Positions 19,616-29,110 of a stretch of DNA of 64,000 nucleotides are shown here, piece by piece. Origin of the DNA: Archangium gephyra (GTDB lineage Bacteria; Myxococcota; Myxococcia; Myxococcales; Myxococcaceae); the NCBI RefSeq assembly GCF_001027285.1, contig NZ_CP011509.1:11370501-11434500 (forward strand), written 5' to 3'. How positions within the stretch are numbered: position 1 is the first letter of the stretch; every line of letters starts with the position of its first letter. The translations under genes and the position numbers were made by a program. A model generated the notes under the pieces. The model made no database searches. It saw only the letters and a program-made list of their open reading frames with translations, and had not been told where the DNA came from.

Positions 19616-21892
19616 TCAGTAGGTGCCCTTCATCGTCACGGCCGTGTACGCGCTGTAGCCGTAGGAGCAGGCGTACCAGGTACCGGCGCTCGGGGCGTTG
19701 ATGGTGCAGCTCTCCGTGTTGCCGTTCAGGTACGGACGGCAGTTGTAGCTGCTGAGGGTGGGCTGCGCGCCGAAACGCACGTACAGGTCCGCGTCACCCG
19801 TGGTGCCCGTCTTGCCCGTCTGGTTGAAGACCACCGAGGTCTTCCCGGCCGGCACGTTCAGCGTGAAGCAATTCCAGGCGGCCGAGGCACCCGAGTACTG
19901 GGCCGACTCCACGCCGCTGGTCAGCACGTTGCCACCGCCGGAGCCCGCCGTGTACGAGCCCTTGAGGCTCATGCCCGAGGCGGCCGAGTAGCCGTAGATC
20001 TTCACGTAGTAGGTGCCAGCGCTCGGAGCGGCGAAGGTGCAGGTCTCCGTGTTGCCACCGGCGTACGGACGGCAGTCGTACGCGGAGGTGGTCGGCTCGG
20101 AGCCGAACTTCACGTACATGTCGCCGTCACCCGTGCCACCGCTCAGGTTGAAGGCCAGGTTGGAGGAGCCCGCGGGCACCGCCAGCGTGTAGGTGCAGCT
20201 CCAGGCGTTGGTGTCCGCGGCGATGCCGGTGACGGTCACGCCGTTGGAGAGCGCGACAGGCGCCGTGCAGGTCGGCGGAGGCGGGGTGGTGCCACCGCCC
20301 ACGCCCACGGCCTCCCAGGCCTGGGTGACGGAGGCCTTCTCCGCCGCGCCCGTGCCGTAGAGCAGCTCGGCGGCCTGCTCGGTGTACGTCTTCGCCTGGG
20401 CGAAGGTGGTGGAGGCCGTCATCAGGTCCACGTTGGCCTTGTAGAAGATGGCGCCGGCCTTCTGGATGCCGATGCCCGTGACGTTGGTGGTGGTCACGTT
20501 GCGCGGGTGCGTGCCGCCCGTGGACAGCAGCTTGAAGGCCAGGTTGGCGATGCCCGAGTTCCAGTGCACGCCGCCGTTGTCGGACGTCCCCGTGTAGCGC
20601 GTGGGGTAGTAGTCCTTCGACGAGCCATCCTGCGTGGGGTTGGCCATGTAGCGGAGCGCGTCACCCGGGGTGTTCGGCGTCCACACGTCGTCGCCCACCA
20701 TCCACACCGCCGCGTCCACCACCCAGCCGCGGTTCCACGACTCGCAGTAGGCGCCGAAGATGTCGCTCAGGCCCTCGTTGAGGGCGCCGGACTCGTTGGA
20801 GTAGGTGAGGTTGGACTCGGAGCTGGTCACCGCGTGCGTCAGCTCGTGCACCGTCACGTCCAGCGACTTGCCCAGCGGCGCGGCGTCCACGCCGTTGCTG
20901 TCGCCGTACACCATCTGGGTGCCGTTCCAGAAGGCGTTGGTGTAGCTGGTGCTGTAGTGCACCGTGCTCTTCAGCTGCGCGCCCGCGTTGTTGTACGAGT
21001 CACGGCCGAAGTTCTGGAAGTAGCACTGGTAGGTGGTGCCCAGGTGGCCGTAGTTGTCGTCCACGTGGGTGTCGCCGGTGGCGGCGCCGCCCTCGGAGCG
21101 CTTGAGGGTACCGGGCAGGCTGGTGCCGTTGTTGGCCGAGTACACCGCGCGGTTCTGCGCCGCGTGGATGTCCGTGGTGACCAGCTCGACGCCGCCCGTC
21201 AGGGCGTTGACGAAGACATGGTCGCGGATGGGCAGCTCCGCGCCCTCGCCCGTCACCACCACCTCGTAGGCCAGCTTCAGGCGGCTGTCCTTCTCGGAGC
21301 GCACGTACACCAGGCGGGCCTCGCCCTCGGAGGCCAGTGCGCGGCCCGAGGTGCTGTCCAGCGCGGCGACCCGGGCGGCCTCACCGGAGATGCGCGCGGT
21401 GGAGGCAACGAGCTCCCCGTCACGGGCCGAGCCGTTGGCGGCATAGATGCGGCCCTCGTGGTCCACGTGCACGATGAGCTCGCCCCCCACCACCGGCAGC
21501 CCGTTCTTCGTCTGGCCGTAGCGGATGTGGGTGTGGCCCTGCTCGTCCACGGAGACGCGCTTCACCACCAGGTCCGTGGCCCGCAGGCGGAAGACGGGGG
21601 CGATGCGCTGGAGCGCGTCACCCACGCGGGAGCTCGCGTCACGGGGCGCGAGGCCCCGCAGCGACTGGCCCGCGGAGCCGAAGTCGCCACGCACCATGAA
21701 GGGCACCACGCCGTCCTCGTGCGTGCCGAGCACCTGGGCACCGGGAATGGCGCTCAGCGCGGCCTTCACGTCCGAGGAGCCGAGGGTGTCGACGTCGCCG
21801 GTGTTCTCCTTCAGCGACTCGTCCGAACCCTCCACCGCGCAAGCCGCCAACGGCAGCGCGAGGAGTGCAGCCAGAATACGATTCCGAACCAA
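19616..21892 (-). CDS. Secreted M4 (thermolysin-like) metalloprotease with two PPC domains
   Basis: This 758-residue secreted zinc protease is likely used to digest prey protein. It has a lipoprotein-like or Sec signal (ending LAACAVEG), a long FTP/PepSY-type propeptide (about 40-210) and the M4 catalytic domain. The zinc site is VTVHELTHAV (His near 349 and 353) with the third ligand in ALNEGLSDIFGAY near 370. Two bacterial pre-peptidase C-terminal domains (about 545-650 and 660-758) follow, each with a YDCRPY/YNCRPY-N-ESC core; they usually aid export and are removed on maturation. The length agrees with known myxobacterial M4 proteases. Confidence 0.95.
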   Translation of the reverse strand: MVRNRILAALLALPLAACAVEGSDESLKENTGDVDTLGSSDVKAALSAIPGAQVLGTHEDGVVPFMVRGDFGSAGQSLRGLAPRDASSRVGDALQRIAPVFRLRATDLVVKRVSVDEQGHTHIRYGQTKNGLPVVGGELIVHVDHEGRIYAANGSARDGELVASTARISGEAARVAALDSTSGRALASEGEARLVYVRSEKDSRLKLAYEVVVTGEGAELPIRDHVFVNALTGGVELVTTDIHAAQNRAVYSANNGTSLPGTLKRSEGGAATGDTHVDDNYGHLGTTYQCYFQNFGRDSYNNAGAQLKSTVHYSTSYTNAFWNGTQMVYGDSNGVDAAPLGKSLDVTVHELTHAVTSSESNLTYSNESGALNEGLSDIFGAYCESWNRGWVVDAAVWMVGDDVWTPNTPGDALRYMANPTQDGSSKDYYPTRYTGTSDNGGVHWNSGIANLAFKLLSTGGTHPRNVTTTNVTGIGIQKAGAIFYKANVDLMTASTTFAQAKTYTEQAAELLYGTGAAEKASVTQAWEAVGVGGGTTPPPPTCTAPVALSNGVTVTGIAADTNAWSCTYTLAVPAGSSNLAFNLSGGTGDGDMYVKFGSEPTTSAYDCRPYAGGNTETCTFAAPSAGTYYVKIYGYSAASGMSLKGSYTAGSGGGNVLTSGVESAQYSGASAAWNCFTLNVPAGKTSVVFNQTGKTGTTGDADLYVRFGAQPTLSSYNCRPYLNGNTESCTINAPSAGTWYACSYGYSAYTAVTMKGTY

Positions 21893-22368
21893 GGGGGGTA
21901 CCTCCTGCTGGGCGGTGACGGAGCTGCCACCGCGGGCAGGGTCCGCTATCAGCAGGAGTCATGCCGTCTCGTGAAAACGCGTCCTCCTCGTCTCACGCTC
22001 ATTCCCCGAGAAAACGCGGTGGAGCATGGATGTCCCACTGCCTCCGCGCCGCCGTGTAACCGGCCTTGACACGAAATGGCCCAAGCTCGCGAAATGATTG
22101 TGTTTCAAACGAACGCGGGGACTGACCTGGATCCGGACACTTCTGGCGCGAGGATGTCCCCCACCACCCGCCCACCGCCAGGGCGAGACCCACGTCGGAG
22201 GCCGAACATCCAGCCGGACCATTCATTCCCGGAGCGCTCACCGGGCAGGCTTGGAACGGCCCTGTGACAACCAGGGGGCCAAGGGCCAAGGTGGCTGATT
22301 CATTTGACTTTCGACGCGATGCGGAAGAATTGGAAGCGTCGCTTCATCCTCAGCCATCACAGGTCTCC
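21893..22368. other. Divergent intergenic region with candidate promoter
   Basis: This 476-bp gap lies between the M4 protease (minus) and exbB (plus). It includes TTGACA at 22066-22071, a good -35 match for plus-strand transcription, but the -10 about 17-19 bp downstream (GCGAAA or GAAATG) is poor. The exbB frame stays open up to 22264, so a longer start cannot be excluded. No RNA gene or small ORF was recognised. Confidence 0.45.
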
Positions 22369-23085
<717 letters not shown>

Positions 23086-23088
23086 GTC

Positions 23089-23523
23089 ATGGCCGGCGGC
23101 GCTCAGGACAACGACGAGGAGATCACCGGCATCAACGTCACCCCGCTGGTGGACGTGGTGCTGGTGCTGCTCATCATCTTCATGGTGACGGCCAACTTCA
23201 TCGTCCGCGAGACGGTGGAGGTGGACCTGCCCCGGGCCGCCAATGGCGGAGAGACGGTGCAGGGGCTCGTCAACGTGGTGCTGGACAAGCAGGGCAAGCT
23301 CTTCTTCGACGGCGCGGAGGTGAGTGAGGAGGAGCTGCGGCGCAAGGTGGTGGAGTCGCTGGCCAAGGACAAGGAGACGCGCGCCATCATCAGCGCGGAC
23401 CAGAGCCTGCCGTACGGCCGGGTGATGCGGCTCATCGACGTGGTGAAGGGCGAGGGCATCGCCAAGTTCGCCCTCAACATCGAGAAGGACGCGGCGCCCG
23501 CGGCTGCACCCGCGGCGCCCTGA
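23089..23523 (+). CDS. exbD: ExbD/TolR-family biopolymer transport protein
   Basis: The 144-residue protein has the ExbD layout: a short cytoplasmic N-terminus, one membrane helix (about 20-40) carrying the essential proton-pathway Asp22 in NVTPLVDVVLVLL, and a periplasmic domain. The tail is Ala/Pro-rich. It starts 3 bp after exbB, so the two are translationally linked, and tonB follows 16 bp downstream. Confidence 0.95.
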   Translation: MAGGAQDNDEEITGINVTPLVDVVLVLLIIFMVTANFIVRETVEVDLPRAANGGETVQGLVNVVLDKQGKLFFDGAEVSEEELRRKVVESLAKDKETRAIISADQSLPYGRVMRLIDVVKGEGIAKFALNIEKDAAPAAAPAAP

Positions 23524-23539
23524 GGGGTGTCCCAAGGCC

Positions 23540-24337
23540 ATGAGCCAGGCCGCGCTCGATCCATCCGTGTCCATCCGCCGCGACTCGTCGCGGGCGGTGC
23601 TCCTCTTCCTGCTCGTGTCCCTCGGGGTGCACGCCGCGGGCTTCTTCCTGTTGTCGCGGATGCAGGAGCGCACGCTGCCCGCCATCCAGCGTCCGGTGGA
23701 GCTGGTGATGGTGGAGGTGGCCAGGCCGCCCCCGCCGCCGCCTCCGGCCCCGGAGGAGCCCAAGCCGCCCCCGCCCAAGCCGAAGGTGGCGCCCAAGCCG
23801 CCGCCGGTGAAGGTGGCCCAGGCCGAGAAGCCGCCCCCGCCGCCTCCGCCCGACGCGGCGCCTCCGCCTCCCAACGACGCGCCTCCGCCCGAGCAGCCCT
23901 CCAAGCCGGTGCCCCTCGTGGTGGGCATCTCCATGTCCTCCACCACCAGCGCCGGTGGCTTCGCCGCTCCGGTGGGCAACACCGTCTATGGCAGGACGGG
24001 GGACAAGGCCACGGACCCCAAGGAGGTGAAGGCCTACTCGGCGCCCAAGTACGTGCCCGTGTACCAGGTGGACACCGAGCCCAGCGTGGCCTCCGAGGTG
24101 AAGATTCCCTACCCCGACGAGGCCCGGCGCGCGGGCGTCGAGGGCACGGTGACGCTGTCCATCACCATCGACAACGAGGGCCGCGTGGTGAAGGCCTCCA
24201 TCGTCAAGGGACTCGGCTACGGGCTGGACGAGGCCGCTCGCACCGCCCTGATGCGCTTCCGCTTCAAGCCGGCCATCAAGAACGGGGAAGCCGTCTCCAC
24301 GGAGATGAAGTACTCGTACACGTTCGTGCTGGACTGA
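23540..24337 (+). CDS. tonB: TonB-family energy transducer
   Basis: The 265-residue protein has one N-terminal membrane anchor (about 20-37), a Pro-rich periplasmic spacer with PPPPPPAPEEPKPPPPKPK-type repeats (about 60-125), and a C-terminal TonB fold (about 180-265) with IPYPDEARRAGVEGTVTLSITI and the family-typical YGLDEAARTALMRFRF. It would couple the ExbBD proton channel to outer-membrane receptors such as the SusC-type protein 20 kb upstream; that link is inference. It ends the exbB-exbD-tonB operon. Confidence 0.93.
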   Translation: MSQAALDPSVSIRRDSSRAVLLFLLVSLGVHAAGFFLLSRMQERTLPAIQRPVELVMVEVARPPPPPPPAPEEPKPPPPKPKVAPKPPPVKVAQAEKPPPPPPPDAAPPPPNDAPPPEQPSKPVPLVVGISMSSTTSAGGFAAPVGNTVYGRTGDKATDPKEVKAYSAPKYVPVYQVDTEPSVASEVKIPYPDEARRAGVEGTVTLSITIDNEGRVVKASIVKGLGYGLDEAARTALMRFRFKPAIKNGEAVSTEMKYSYTFVLD

Positions 24338-24356
24338 CCGGCACGCAACACCGGGA

Positions 24357-24380
24357 CGGGCGTCCACCCCTGGACGCCCG
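24357..24380 (+). terminator. Hairpin ending the exbB-exbD-tonB operon
   Basis: A perfect 10-bp stem CGGGCGTCCA / TGGACGCCCG with a CCCC loop lies 19 bp after the tonB stop. No U-tract follows, so it may act as a weak intrinsic terminator or an mRNA 3' stabiliser. Confidence 0.6.
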
Positions 24381-24450
24381 GACTCTCCCTCCCTCGCCGC
24401 TCCACGCTCCGGTGTAGAGTCCCTCGCCTCCCTACCGCCGAGGATGCCGG

Positions 24451-24783
24451 ATGACGCTCTCCGCCGAGGATCGCTTCAACATCGAGGTCATCAAGCTGCT
24501 GCTCCAGGTCGCCTGGGTGGACCGGGAGATCACCAAGGCCGAGCGCATGGTCGTCCTGGGCCTGGGCCGCAGCTGGAACGTGCCCGAGGCCGAGCTGCAC
24601 TCGCTGATGGACCGGTTGGACATTGGGGGCACCATGCCCGAGCCGGACCTGGAGGTGCTGCGCACCCGCCCGGACGAGGTGCTGGAGGCCGCCCGCGCCC
24701 TGTGTGTCTCCGACGGCAAGCTCGCCGAGGGGGAGAAGACCATGCTCGAGCGCATCACCTCCCGGCTGGGTGTGACGCCCTAG
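24451..24783 (+). CDS. TerB-like helical protein
   Basis: The 110-residue all-helical protein matches the TerB/DjlA-N domain pattern: an acidic first helix ending VAWVDREITKAERMVV and a mirrored second half with ARALCVSDGKLAEGEKTML. The paired D-x-E/T-x-x-E segments are the metal-binding signature of TerB domains. No tellurite-resistance gene cluster is nearby, so the name says little about function. It is followed 17 bp later by the aldo/keto-reductase-like gene and may share its transcript. Confidence 0.8.
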   Translation: MTLSAEDRFNIEVIKLLLQVAWVDREITKAERMVVLGLGRSWNVPEAELHSLMDRLDIGGTMPEPDLEVLRTRPDEVLEAARALCVSDGKLAEGEKTMLERITSRLGVTP

Positions 24784-24800
24784 GCCACACCCGGAGTACG

Positions 24801-25637
24801 ATGGAGGCCTCCACCCCGGGAGCCTCCATGAGCGCCACCGCGCAGGCCTCTTCCTCGCAGGACTTCACCCACCGCTACCTCCCCACCTTCGGCAAGCGGG
24901 TGCACCGGCTGGGCCTCGCCGGCAACTACGGCATCGACGAGGCCGGGCTGGGCGCCGCGCTGGAGCGGGGGCTGAACTACATCTTCTGGACGCCGCGCCA
25001 GGGCCGCCTCACCCGCGTGCTGCGCGAGGCCCTCAAGCGGGACCGCGAGCGCTTCGTCCTGTGCGCCGGCCCCTCCTTCGGCTGGTTCCCCGGCCAGGTG
25101 CGCCGCGGCGCCGAGCGCGCCCTCAAGGTGCTCGGCACGGACTACCTGGACCTGTACCAGCTGTACTGGCTGAGCCGGATGAGCGCGTGGACGGAGGGCA
25201 CCGTCGAGGAGCTCCAGAAGCTCAAGCAGGAGGGCAAGGTGCGCGCCCTGGGCGTCTCCATCCATGACCGCCCGCGCGCCGGCAAGCTCGCCGAGGACTC
25301 GCCGCTGGACTTGCTGATGATCCGCTACAACGCGGCGCACCCGGGCGCCGAGCGCGACATCTTCCCGCACCTGGAGAAGCGCAAGCCGGCGCTGGTGGCC
25401 TACACCGCCACGGACTGGCGCCGCCTGCTCAAGCGCCCGCGCGGGTGGGAGGGCCGCGTGCCCACCGCGGGTGACTGCTACCGCTTCTGCCTCACCAACC
25501 CCCACGTGGACGTGGTGCTCACCGGCCCGGCGAGCCTGGCGCAGCTGGACGAGAACCTGGCCGCGCTGGAGCGGGGCCCGCTCTCGTCCGAGGAGCTGGA
25601 GTGGATGCGGCGCTTCGGCCAGGTCGTCCACGGCTGA
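24801..25637 (+). CDS. Aldo/keto-reductase-fold protein with degenerate active site
   Basis: The 278-residue product follows the AKR TIM-barrel pattern (ALERGLNYIFW, VLGTDYLDLYQLYWLS, LKQEGKVRALGVSIHD, LLMIRYNAAH, VDVVLTGPAS). The usual catalytic tetrad is not apparent. Where active AKRs read D-T-A-x-x-Y-G, this protein has IFWTPRQG, and the conserved His of the DLYxLH strand is Tyr (DLYQLY). It may bind a nucleotide without normal reduction, or work by another chemistry. ATG 24801 has GGAG at good spacing; ATG 24828 is an alternative with its own GGGAG. Confidence 0.8.
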   Translation: MEASTPGASMSATAQASSSQDFTHRYLPTFGKRVHRLGLAGNYGIDEAGLGAALERGLNYIFWTPRQGRLTRVLREALKRDRERFVLCAGPSFGWFPGQVRRGAERALKVLGTDYLDLYQLYWLSRMSAWTEGTVEELQKLKQEGKVRALGVSIHDRPRAGKLAEDSPLDLLMIRYNAAHPGAERDIFPHLEKRKPALVAYTATDWRRLLKRPRGWEGRVPTAGDCYRFCLTNPHVDVVLTGPASLAQLDENLAALERGPLSSEELEWMRRFGQVVHG

Positions 25638-25668
25638 GGAGCCGGGGACGCGCCGCGGACGCCCGGGC

Positions 25669-26088
25669 TCAGGCCACCGCGGGCTTCTCGGCGGGCGCCA
25701 GGTGCACGTCGATGTTCTGCGAGCCCTTCACGCCCAGGAACGTCTCCACGTTGCCCTTGCCGCCCGGCTCGAAGGTGATGGTCTGCATGTTCGAGCCGAG
25801 CTTCGCCTCGATGGTCAGCTTGCTGCCGCTGGCGGTGTACGTCGCCTGGGAGGCGCGGTTGCCGTTGAGGGTGACCTCGGCCTTGCCGTCCTCGTTCAGC
25901 TTCAGCGTGAGGGAGAGCTCGCCCTTGTAGAAGACCGTGTCGATCTTCCCCTTGAAGGCCGCCTGGTTGGCGCCGAGGTCGATGAACTCGCCGTTGCCCA
26001 CGTTCACGAAGAAGACCACCTTCGCGAAGATGTTCAGCTTCGCGCCCGCCGCGGTGCCACGTCCGATGAAGTTGCGGAAATCGACCAT
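25669..26088 (-). CDS. Conserved-looking protein of unknown function, 139 aa
   Basis: The protein is not recognised. It has no signal peptide and looks like one small beta-rich domain: alternating hydrophobic strands (NIFAKVVFFVNVG, GELSLTLKLN, KAEVTLNGNRA, SKLTIEAKLG, QTITFEPGG) with short polar turns, resembling a lipocalin-like or beta-sandwich fold. GGGAG precedes ATG 26088; longer upstream frames give low-complexity Arg/Ala sequence typical of noncoding DNA. It is flanked by convergent and co-oriented genes without functional hints. Confidence 0.7.
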   Translation of the reverse strand: MVDFRNFIGRGTAAGAKLNIFAKVVFFVNVGNGEFIDLGANQAAFKGKIDTVFYKGELSLTLKLNEDGKAEVTLNGNRASQATYTASGSKLTIEAKLGSNMQTITFEPGGKGNVETFLGVKGSQNIDVHLAPAEKPAVA

Positions 26089-26233
26089 GTTCTCCCAGTC
26101 CGATGCCGATGAGTGAGACGGGGCACGGGCCCCGGCGCCACGCATCGTAACAGCGCCCGCCGTCACCGCCCGCCGCTGTTTCGCATGACGCGGGCGGACA
26201 GACGTGGACTGTCGGACAAGGAGGCGGCCCCGC

Positions 26234-26857
26234 TCAGCGGACCTGCACGGTGTTGCCGTCGACGCTGGCATTGCGCGGCCGGGCGAAGCGGGCCAGCGAG
26301 ACGGTGGGCGAGTAGGTGCTGGTGAAGTTGACCAGCATCAGCGTCATCAGGGACGCCCTCTCCCCGAGCGGGCGCTCCATCAGGGGCGCCGGGAAGGCCA
26401 CATGGAGCGCCTCCTCCAACGGCCCGCCACAGGTGCGCTGGCCCACGAAGCCGTCCTCGGCGCGCCGCAGCACGTAGCCGCAGCCCCCCACGACGCCGTG
26501 GAGCCACTCCTTGTCCACGGTGAGGTCCACCGGGAGGCCCCCGAAGCTGCCCCAGACGCGGGTGTCATCTCCCTCGGCGATCTCCAGCCGCGTCCCGCGC
26601 GCATCCACCGAGCCGGTGATCTCCTGCCAGTTCCACCGCAGGGAGACGGGCCTGTCCCGGAAGCGGCCTCGCAGGGAGTTGTCGCCGAGGACGAGCGAGG
26701 ACGCGGGGCCCGTGACGTAGGAGCCCTGCAGCAGCAGGGGCTCTCCCGCCGGTTGGCCCAGGGGATACGCCGGCCCTCCGGTACGGGAGAGGGAGTGGGA
26801 ACCCGCACACCCGGCCCCCAGGAGCATGAGACCCGACAGCAGCAGCAGACGCGACAT
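26234..26857 (-). CDS. Lipoprotein of unknown function
   Basis: The 207-residue lipoprotein has the signal MSRLLLLSGLMLLGAGC (lipobox GAGC, Cys near 17). The mature part is beta-rich with periodic Gly-Leu-Arg strands (SLVLGDNSLRGRFRDRPVSLRW, DTRVWGSFGGLPVDLTV) and a Cys pair (VVGGCGYVLRR...GQRTCGG). It ends with a strand containing NASVDGNTVQV. No known family is recognised. It lies 80 bp downstream of the Sel1-repeat gene on the same strand. Confidence 0.75.
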   Translation of the reverse strand: MSRLLLLSGLMLLGAGCAGSHSLSRTGGPAYPLGQPAGEPLLLQGSYVTGPASSLVLGDNSLRGRFRDRPVSLRWNWQEITGSVDARGTRLEIAEGDDTRVWGSFGGLPVDLTVDKEWLHGVVGGCGYVLRRAEDGFVGQRTCGGPLEEALHVAFPAPLMERPLGERASLMTLMLVNFTSTYSPTVSLARFARPRNASVDGNTVQVR

Positions 26858-26937
26858 GGCAGCCCTCCGATTCGCTTGGCCGTAACACTCCAATAAACGC
26901 ACGGCCTGGAAGGGCATATCGGCCGGGAGCGCGCGCC

Positions 26938-28545
26938 TCAGAACGCCTTGGAGCTCTTCTTGCTCTGCTTCTCGGCCTTTGCCTTCTTGTTCGCTTCCAC
27001 CTCGGCATCCATGGCCTTCTTCGCGGTGGGGACCGTGAAGGTCAGGAAGGTCGTGGTGGAGGGCCAGCCCCGTGAAACGGTGATGATCACGCCGTCCTTC
27101 CGCTTCCAGGTATGCACCACGTCCCCGAGGCTGATCTTCCCTTTCTTGGAGGTCGGTGCTCCGTACTTCGCCTGGACCATGGAGGAGATCTGGCCGACCT
27201 GTTCGGTGTTCATGAAGGAGGGGAACTCGTATTCGAAGACCGCCAACTGACCCGTGGCATCCACATAGCCCACCTTGAGCTTCTCGGCGCCGTCGAGCAG
27301 GCCCTTGGCCGAGTAGAGGTCGTACCAATAAGCGTCGTCCTCGCGCTCCGGCACCACGCCTTCCTTCTTGATGGCTGCCCGCATCTCCTGCCGCGTCGCG
27401 GAGGAGAGCACCACATCGAATACGATCGTTTGCGATGCCGCATCGCGCTTCGTTTCCGGCAGCGCGGCGGCACGCTGCTTGTCCTGGCCCACCTGGCCGA
27501 GGTTCTTGCACCCCGAGGTAGACCCGCCCTTACAGGCCTTCTCATAGAGTGCGGCGGCGCGGCGCTCGTCCTTGGGGACGCCGAGGCCCTCCGCATGCAT
27601 CGTGCCGAGGAGATTGCAAGCCGGCGCGTCCCCGCCCTCGCAGGCCTTCTCGAACAGCACGGCGGCGCGGCGCATGTCCTTATTGACGCCCTGGCCCTCC
27701 ATATAGCTCAGGCCGAGTCTGATGCACCCCTGGGCGGACCCGCCCTCGCAGGCCTTCTCGAACAGCACGGCGGCGCGGTGCTCGTCCTTGGGGACGCCGC
27801 GGCCGTCCACATGGAACAGGCCGAGGTTGTTACACCCCGGGGCAGACCCGCCCTCACAGGCCTTCTCGAACAGCACGGCGGCGCGGTGCTCGTCCTTGGG
27901 GACGCCGAGGCCCTCCGCATAGAGCGTGCCGAGGTTGGTGCAACCCGGGGCATTCCCGCCCTCGCAGGCCTTCTCATGGAGTGCGGCGGCGCGGCGCTCG
28001 TCCTTGGGGACGCCGAGGCCCTCCTCATAGAGCGAGCCGAGGCTGGTGCAACCCGGGGCATTCCCGCCCTCGCAGGCCTTCTCGTGGAGTGCGGCGGCGC
28101 GGCGCTCGTCCTTGGAGACGCCGAGGCCCTTCTCATGAATCACGCCGAGGAGATAGCAACCCGAGGCATCCCCGCCCTCGCAGGCCTTCTCGAACAGCAC
28201 GGCGGCGCGGCGCATGTCCTTATCGACACCCTCGCCCCTCGCATAAGCCAGGCCGAGTTTGCCGCACGCCACGGCATCCCCGCCCTCGCAGGCCTTCTCG
28301 TGGAGTGCGGCGGTGCCGCGCGCGTCCGGGGGGACGCCGCTGTCTTCCTGGGATGCCTCGGCACTGACGGGCGGCTTCTTCTCGGGCGAGGGGGGGACCG
28401 GGGCCCCTTGCGCAACAGGCTCCTGACCCGGGCTGCTCGGGGCGGACGAGGCCTCCTGCTGCGCCATGGCACCTGTACCCAGCAACCCGATGACCACGCA
28501 CAGCGCCACGCTTCGCCGAGCCACGCTTCCACTCCATCCAGACAT
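26938..28545 (-). CDS. Secreted Sel1/Hcp-type repeat protein
   Basis: The 535-residue exported protein has a signal peptide ending AMAQQ and a Ser/Pro/Glu linker. About eight 36-residue Sel1-like repeats follow (roughly residues 78-350), with the core KACEGGDAxxCxxLGxxYxxGxGVxKDxRRA. The two cysteines per repeat (C-x7-C) match the disulfide-stapled variant known from Helicobacter Hcp proteins and suggest a periplasmic or extracellular location. Residues 365-535 form a separate domain (TIVFDVVLSSATRQEM...GDVVHTWKRKDGVIITVS) ending in a Lys/Ser-rich tail. GAGGGGGTG precedes ATG 28545. The likely role is protein-protein interaction. Confidence 0.85.
   Translation of the reverse strand: MSGWSGSVARRSVALCVVIGLLGTGAMAQQEASSAPSSPGQEPVAQGAPVPPSPEKKPPVSAEASQEDSGVPPDARGTAALHEKACEGGDAVACGKLGLAYARGEGVDKDMRRAAVLFEKACEGGDASGCYLLGVIHEKGLGVSKDERRAAALHEKACEGGNAPGCTSLGSLYEEGLGVPKDERRAAALHEKACEGGNAPGCTNLGTLYAEGLGVPKDEHRAAVLFEKACEGGSAPGCNNLGLFHVDGRGVPKDEHRAAVLFEKACEGGSAQGCIRLGLSYMEGQGVNKDMRRAAVLFEKACEGGDAPACNLLGTMHAEGLGVPKDERRAAALYEKACKGGSTSGCKNLGQVGQDKQRAAALPETKRDAASQTIVFDVVLSSATRQEMRAAIKKEGVVPEREDDAYWYDLYSAKGLLDGAEKLKVGYVDATGQLAVFEYEFPSFMNTEQVGQISSMVQAKYGAPTSKKGKISLGDVVHTWKRKDGVIITVSRGWPSTTTFLTFTVPTAKKAMDAEVEANKKAKAEKQSKKSSKAF
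27490..28310 (-). repeat. 108-bp tandem repeats inside the Sel1 gene
   Basis: Seven to eight direct repeats of 108 bp encode the 36-residue Sel1 units. The GCCTTCTCGAACAGCACGGC-type segment recurs almost unchanged at DNA level, which suggests recent duplication or gene conversion between units. The spacing is exactly in frame. Confidence 0.85.
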
Positions 28546-28828
28546 GCCACACCCCCTCGATGTGTGGGCGGGACGCTCCGGCGTCGCGGCCACGGGGCCC
28601 GAATCCTACGCCCTCGGGGACCGATGGCTCCAGAACCGTGGTGCGTCCCAGCGCGCCGGCAACGTACGTCCACAGGCTTTCACTTTCGCTTCCAATCATT
28701 TCCGCACGGTGTGGAAGGGCAATCGGCCCGGCGGCGAGGGAGCGTGCGGGCCCCTCGCGTCACGCGGAGCACCTGGATGCTCCATCTGGGTGGCCGTGTG
28801 AGAGCGGCCCCGCAGGAGGACAGACGAC

Positions 28829-29110
28829 ATGAACAGGGAGAGCATCATCCGGGCCTGGAAGGACCCGGCGTACCGGGCGAGCTTGTCGCCCGAGCAGCGG
28901 GCGGAGTTGCCGGAGCATCCGTCCGGCGTGGCGGAGCTGGATGAGGGCGCGTTGGGACAGGCCGTCGGAGGTTTTCAGCTGAACCCCGTGATCATCCCGA
29001 GATTCCGCAACTTCATCAGCGCGGTCGACGGATGCCCGTCCGTGTTCTGCCCCTTCGAGGAGCGGGACATCCGCATCAACCCCGCGCCCACGATCGCGGC
29101 GCGCCTCTAA
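28829..29110 (+). CDS. Class II lanthipeptide-precursor-like peptide (orphan)
   Basis: The 93-residue peptide has a leader resembling the mersacidin/lichenicidin precursor family: MNRESIIRAWKDPAYRASLS near 1-20, an acidic ELDEGALGQAV helix and a double-Gly cleavage site (VGG, about 45-47). The predicted core, FQLNPVIIPRFRNF... to the C-terminus, has two Cys (CPSVFC), two or three Ser and one Thr, enough for one or two lanthionine rings. AGGAGG precedes the ATG. No LanM synthetase, protease-transporter or other RiPP enzyme is in the window, so maturation would need a distant enzyme, or the peptide has another role. Family assignment rests on motif memory. Confidence 0.7.
   Translation: MNRESIIRAWKDPAYRASLSPEQRAELPEHPSGVAELDEGALGQAVGGFQLNPVIIPRFRNFISAVDGCPSVFCPFEERDIRINPAPTIAARL

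Follow-up and report, generated by a model that had tools for sequence, protein, structure and literature searches.

A stand-alone mersacidin/lichenicidin-family precursor gene of Archangium gephyra, probably modified in trans by a distant LanM synthetase

A LanM synthetase is usually found in the same cluster as the precursors of class II lanthipeptides. This is not required, as prochlorosin precursors do without it. The prochlorosin synthetase ProcM bears a CCG zinc ligand motif. In the prochlorosins and synechococsins (ProcA-ProcM and SyncA-SyncM), one class II synthetase goes with many precursors scattered over the genome, which combine conserved leaders with varied cores (PMC10783134). 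A system from the genus discussed here is LanII-2B of A. violaceum, in which two of four Ser/Thr are dehydrated and two of three Cys cyclised; both lanthionine and methyllanthionine occur in it, and its antibacterial activity is weak, with an MIC of 130 uM (PMC9576775).

Here we describe a precursor gene which resembles those of the mersacidin/lichenicidin family in its leader, its Gly-Gly site and its core of Ser/Thr and Cys, and which differs from them in the lack of a LanM, exporter or immunity gene in its surroundings and in a long Cys-free tail. Likeness of its core to mersacidin or lichenicidin is not expected, because the family model TIGR03898 covers the leader only. The gene lies in a stretch of 64,000 nucleotides (the window; 11,370,501-11,434,500) of the single-contig A. 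gephyra genome (G000; 12,489,432 bases). It was compared with the nearest relatives in the genome set, all Archangium: A. lansinium MIWBW (G001), A. violaceum Cb vi76 (G004) and the further genomes G002, G003 (complete) and G005. Two more genomes, G064 and G065, belong to genus g15, as does G069, Hyalangium versicolor.

The precursor gene and its conservation

The open reading frame at 28829-29110 (+) encodes a 93-aa precursor of the mersacidin/lichenicidin family of class II lanthipeptides. In a profile search TIGR03898 matched it with 70.1 bits (E 1.1e-19, curated cut-off 23.5) over profile positions 2-44 of 44, corresponding to residues 6-48 of the peptide. A Pfam search of the peptide gave zero matches, and in an equivalent search of control genomes nothing scored above the TIGR03898 cut-off. 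GC3 of the frame is 0.91, like that of genuine genes of this genome. The leader reads MNRESIIRAWKDPAYRASLSPEQRAELPEHPSGVAELDEGALGQAVGG; the double-Gly occupies residues 47-48, and the core contains S64, C69, S71, C74 and T88. The preliminary description, which had proposed a class II lanthipeptide-precursor-like peptide with such a leader, a double-Gly site, a CPSVFC core and a good ribosome binding site, is thus borne out by the profile match, and all of the named elements are present. The gene is composed as follows.

28814-28819 (+): Shine-Dalgarno sequence AGGAGG, read directly, 9 bases 5' of the ATG
28829-28972 (+): leader peptide, 48 aa, its Gly-Gly end being the predicted C39 cleavage site (TIGR03898; dN/dS comparison)
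28973-29107 (+): core peptide, 45 aa, consisting of a 15-aa N-terminal extension, SAVDGCPSVFC and the Cys-free tail PFEERDIRINPAPTIAARL
29018-29050 (+): predicted ring segment with candidate lanthionines Ser64-Cys69 and Ser71-Cys74
29108-29110 (+): stop codon

The tail contains DIRINP, similar to YIRVNP of Cys-free precursors with the same leader.

An ortholog, 70% identical, occupies the same genomic place in A. lansinium. Its ring segment, SAVDACPSLFC, keeps the Ser and Cys. Between the two species we obtained dN 0.067 and dS 0.41 for the leader, 0.128 and 0.33 for the ring segment and 0.39 and 0.47 for the whole core, all rough figures from one ortholog pair and 88 codons. These substitution rates indicate purifying selection on the leader and a weaker form of it on the ring segment. 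The upstream block at 20760-26923 is common to both genomes. A Sel1-repeat gene (26938-28593, -) stands between this block and the precursor in A. gephyra and is missing in A. lansinium, and the downstream genes differ. Conservation is limited to a promoter-plus-ORF cassette (28760-29082) that starts at the -35 block. The corresponding site in G002-G005 lacks the gene; A. violaceum Cb vi76 is closer to A. gephyra there than A. lansinium is, yet the gene is absent.

LanM enzymes and dispersed precursors

Genome-wide profile searches of A. gephyra found five TIGR03898 precursors and two LanM enzymes, both with a CHG zinc motif. LanM-A, at 8.177 Mb (TIGR03897, 1013 bits), has two precursors upstream of it, together with a C39-ABC exporter located at 8.168 Mb. 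LanM-B, at 4.044 Mb (complete, 942 bits), is likewise accompanied by a precursor and a C39-ABC gene of its own. There is no LanM near the window gene, as was claimed earlier, and the closest one, LanM-A, is 3.2 Mb away. Two of the five precursors are dispersed, far from either LanM: the window gene and a second one, located at 11.861 Mb. The window gene is therefore an orphan locally, not genomically: the genome does contain LanM enzymes and further copies of the leader. Neither of the outcomes named beforehand as refuting the preliminary description, a leader unlike those of lanthipeptides or a genome devoid of LanM, was observed. Two stand-alone LANC_like genes without a DUF4135 dehydratase domain were also observed on the A. 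gephyra contig, at 9313405-9314484 and 8284466-8285584.

Dispersal is more pronounced in A. lansinium, where 13 precursors exceed the TIGR03898 cut-off and only one DUF4135 synthetase is present, LanM-A (87% identical). Four of these precursors are found no more than 11 kb from it; nine, including the ortholog of the window gene, are dispersed over 11 Mb. A hand count, restricted to genomes assembled into one or two contigs and without drafts, took as dispersed every precursor separated from all LanMs by more than 20 kb. Such precursors made up 18 of 30 in Archangium (G000-G003), three of five in G064 and G065, and one of 18 in other Myxococcaceae. LanM-A itself is found in five of the six Archangium genomes, with 79-93% identity.

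Other dispersed precursors resemble the window gene. In an alignment, the window peptide and its ortholog have SA(V/I/F)D.CPS...C, in slightly varied form, in common with seven further dispersed precursors. An orphan with the variant SAIDACPS occurs in at least three different neighbourhoods; in the complete genome G003 it has kept the promoter (G003:C1:4665043, L034), and this genome has no LanM-A ortholog. A close relative of the second A. gephyra orphan (11.861 Mb) stands among the same neighbours in A. lansinium, and its relatives in G002 and G003 stand among different ones; the orphan therefore persists independently of local genes. It carries Asn at the position of the first ring Ser in the others. 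The same leader type also precedes Cys-free cores (L024+, L103 and the second L040 gene). Such cores cannot form lanthionines, as in L024 and L136, and the leader therefore also serves non-lanthionine peptides. The L024 (+ strand ORF from 1808) and L136 (- strand ORF) cores, from two genomes, have GPDQDL.DF...TPYIRV in common.

A promoter and 5' hairpin upstream of the precursors

Dispersed and LanM-A-linked precursors have the same upstream design, namely GTCACA-N14-ACTCCATC, then a 5' hairpin, then the Shine-Dalgarno sequence. The window copy consists of the following elements.

28758-28764 (+): -35-like element CGTCACG (family consensus cGTCACA), found by position weight matrix (PWM), with an exact degenerate match at 28760-28786
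28779-28787 (+): -10-like element GCTCCATCT (family consensus ACTCCATCC), 14 bases after TCACG
28792-28809 (+): 5'-UTR hairpin GGCCG-loop-CGGCC between promoter and Shine-Dalgarno sequence, z -2.05

In precursors with KDP-type leaders, TCACA is followed after 14 (13-15) bases by ACTCC, 43-62 bases upstream of the start codon. The exact pair is present in 27 of 56 such precursors, compared with 0.08 on average over 50 shuffles, which preserve base composition only, and the 56 sequences are non-independent, as they include close orthologs; the spacing is fixed despite differing spacers. None of eight LanM-B-type precursors has the pair, even with one mismatch allowed. A PWM trained without the window copy and its ortholog places 28760 first among 127,904 window positions (17.5 bits, next 11.6). 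The pattern shared by these genes can be read from the sequence itself, as can the family and leader type of the peptide, its conservation and the enzymes in the genome. Neither a consensus sigma-70 promoter nor an intrinsic terminator was found near the window gene.

Most paralogs have a hairpin in the equivalent upstream position, with a sequence that varies between genes; across 44 upstream regions the mean z is -2.5 against a base-shuffled control. Because the longer stretch 28765-28850 is not unusually stable when folded (z -0.65), we limit the claim to the local hairpin between the -10 block and the Shine-Dalgarno sequence. An Rfam search of the 5' region returned two weak, chance-level matches, both far below gathering.

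Compared with a reversed control, the strict promoter pattern is enriched in most precursor-bearing genomes, e.g. 19:1 in G005 and 18:0 in G004, more weakly in A. gephyra (6:3). Four precursor-free genomes of genus g38 gave no enrichment (5:2, 2:4, 3:2 and 2:2). We considered that the promoter might be a purely RiPP-specific signal and rejected this idea, because it is also upstream of other genes and A. violaceum has 18 sites and one precursor. The regulon may thus be wider than RiPPs. In A. gephyra the pattern precedes a microviridin-family RiPP precursor (MKKNAKDKVARKGGKPFFAHLLEAQELEQVSGG..., with a GG motif; NF033738, 51.9 bits) at G000:C1:6565500 (L238 1500-1600). Elsewhere it was seen upstream of genes that, named by eye, encode a small SnoaL-like protein, a secreted enzyme-like protein and response regulators (G004:C31:63388, L226; G005:C1:890619, L225; L243 in G002; L245 in G064). 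Described ECF41 promoters follow TGTCACA-n16-CGTC (PMC3426412). The present pattern resembles them by TCACA in the -35 block and by similar overall spacing, and differs by its -10 block, ACTCCATC (ACTCC) instead of CGTC, so that it does not qualify as ECF41. That some ECF-type sigma factor recognizes it is our guess.

Proposed modification in trans and comparison with known systems

We suggest that the window precursor is probably modified in trans by LanM-A, as one of a dispersed set of precursors. Modification in trans, which had been raised earlier as an option, is favoured because the genome encodes LanM-A and a C39-ABC exporter, and because its LanM-linked paralogs agree with the window gene in leader type and promoter. 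It is also favoured because A. lansinium has only one LanM for 13 precursors, nine of which are dispersed, the ortholog of the window gene among them. We infer the following course of events. The gene would be transcribed from the promoter that it has in common with the precursors beside LanM-A, possibly with an ECF-type sigma factor, and the mRNA would start with the short hairpin, followed by the strong ribosome-binding site. LanM-A would then attach to the leader, remove water from Ser64 and Ser71 and join the resulting residues to Cys69 and Cys74 in thioether rings. Finally, a C39-ABC exporter, most likely the one at 8.168 Mb beside LanM-A, would cleave after Gly48 and export the product. 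As to its biological role, we can only guess at antagonism of competitors or prey.

The pairing with LanM-A agrees with leader profiles, on which the window leader scores 75.1 bits for the LanM-A-linked and 60.2 for the LanM-B-type set, a margin of only 15 bits in a partly circular comparison, the LanM-A set being itself of KDP type. The LanM-A-linked profile also gives the higher score for every KDP-type leader. A. violaceum Cb vi76 has a LanM 93% identical to LanM-A and one precursor found, located beside it; because the part of this precursor behind the GG comprises exactly four Ser/Thr and three Cys, it is almost certainly LanII-2B. If the LanII-2B cluster is that of Cb vi76, a LanM-A ortholog is experimentally active. 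Against LanM-A count the G003 orphan in a genome without its ortholog, the Cys-free cores behind the same leader, Asn in the second orphan, the promoter upstream of unrelated genes, and the CHG zinc motif in place of CCG.

Some of these observations would fit other explanations. The peptide might be exported and cleaved only, as a signal or effector, either linear or with disulfide bonds, whose leader is borrowed for the C39 exporter. Cys-free paralogs with the same leader, one type of which is conserved in two genomes (L024+, L136-), and the microviridin-family precursor with its GG motif under the same promoter pattern speak for this, whereas the ring segment has kept its Ser and Cys across species while the remaining core diverged, and the leader type is that of LanM-linked precursors; we regard it as unlikely. 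About equally unlikely is modification by LanM-B, or by LanM-A together with a free-standing LanC-like cyclase. LanM-B (4.04 Mb) is complete at 942 bits, two LANC_like genes stand alone at 9.31 Mb (L022) and 8.28 Mb (L023), and G003 keeps a related orphan without LanM-A. But precursors of the LanM-B type differ in their leader and do not have the shared promoter, and A. lansinium retains the ortholog with LanM-A (87% identical) as its sole DUF4135 synthetase.

It is quite improbable that the gene is a functionless, decaying remnant of a lost cluster. The gene can be lost, since A. violaceum Cb vi76 has no gene at the site though it is closer to A. gephyra there; against decay, the frame is intact, dN is below dS in leader and ring segment, and the promoter is retained. 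Least of all do we believe that the gene forms a local operon with that of the propeller (PQQ_2) lipoprotein and has a secretion-linked role beside it, as the preliminary description had envisaged. The propeller gene is on the same strand and begins 77 bases past the stop codon. Nevertheless, synteny comparison largely refutes this explanation: in A. lansinium the same upstream neighbours and the cassette are followed by other genes, with neither propeller nor Sel1 gene beside the ortholog, and we rejected the operon because of the missing propeller gene.

Modification by LanM-A would place the window gene in a larger scheme. The common promoter design of the scattered precursor genes suggests a one-enzyme, many-peptides system in Archangium. 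In the literature covered, which takes in little of the subscription journals, we found no report of dispersed lanthipeptide precursors in Nannocystis, Archangium, Hyalangium or Myxococcota. Provisionally, we thus consider the dispersed, co-regulated set in these predatory soil bacteria new, the scattered mode as such being already known from the prochlorosins of marine picocyanobacteria; provisionally new is also the design of promoter, 5' hairpin and Shine-Dalgarno sequence common to dispersed and LanM-A-linked precursors. The shared promoter offers a handle beyond cluster-based mining, as it locates precursors far from biosynthetic genes and predicts the timing of production. Why one genome keeps many such peptides becomes testable, with a single enzyme gene and a single promoter type to perturb.

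From LanII-2B, of the same genus and made with two rings by a LanM 93% identical to LanM-A (if its cluster is that of Cb vi76), the window gene differs in its core (..STGCTDGVPTCGIVPFC.. in LanII-2B) and in that the LanII-2B precursor stands beside its LanM. With prochlorosins and synechococsins the likeness lies in many dispersed precursors per LanM, as met in A. lansinium. The leaders there are of Nif11 type, in Archangium of mersacidin type (only TIGR03898 matched the window peptide), and both Archangium LanMs have CHG instead of the ProcM-type CCG. We tentatively propose, as a possibility that we would not yet call probable, that Archangium and Hyalangium possess a genome-wide peptide regulon, in which one CHG class II synthetase serves dispersed, fast-changing, stand-alone cassettes of promoter, hairpin and GG leader, with microviridin-family precursors under the same promoter, a combinatorial system independent of the cyanobacterial prochlorosins. 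If this is true, it would represent a second, unrelated case and would show that scattered substrates served by one enzyme have arisen more than once in evolution, without any requirement for a synthetase of the ProcM type.
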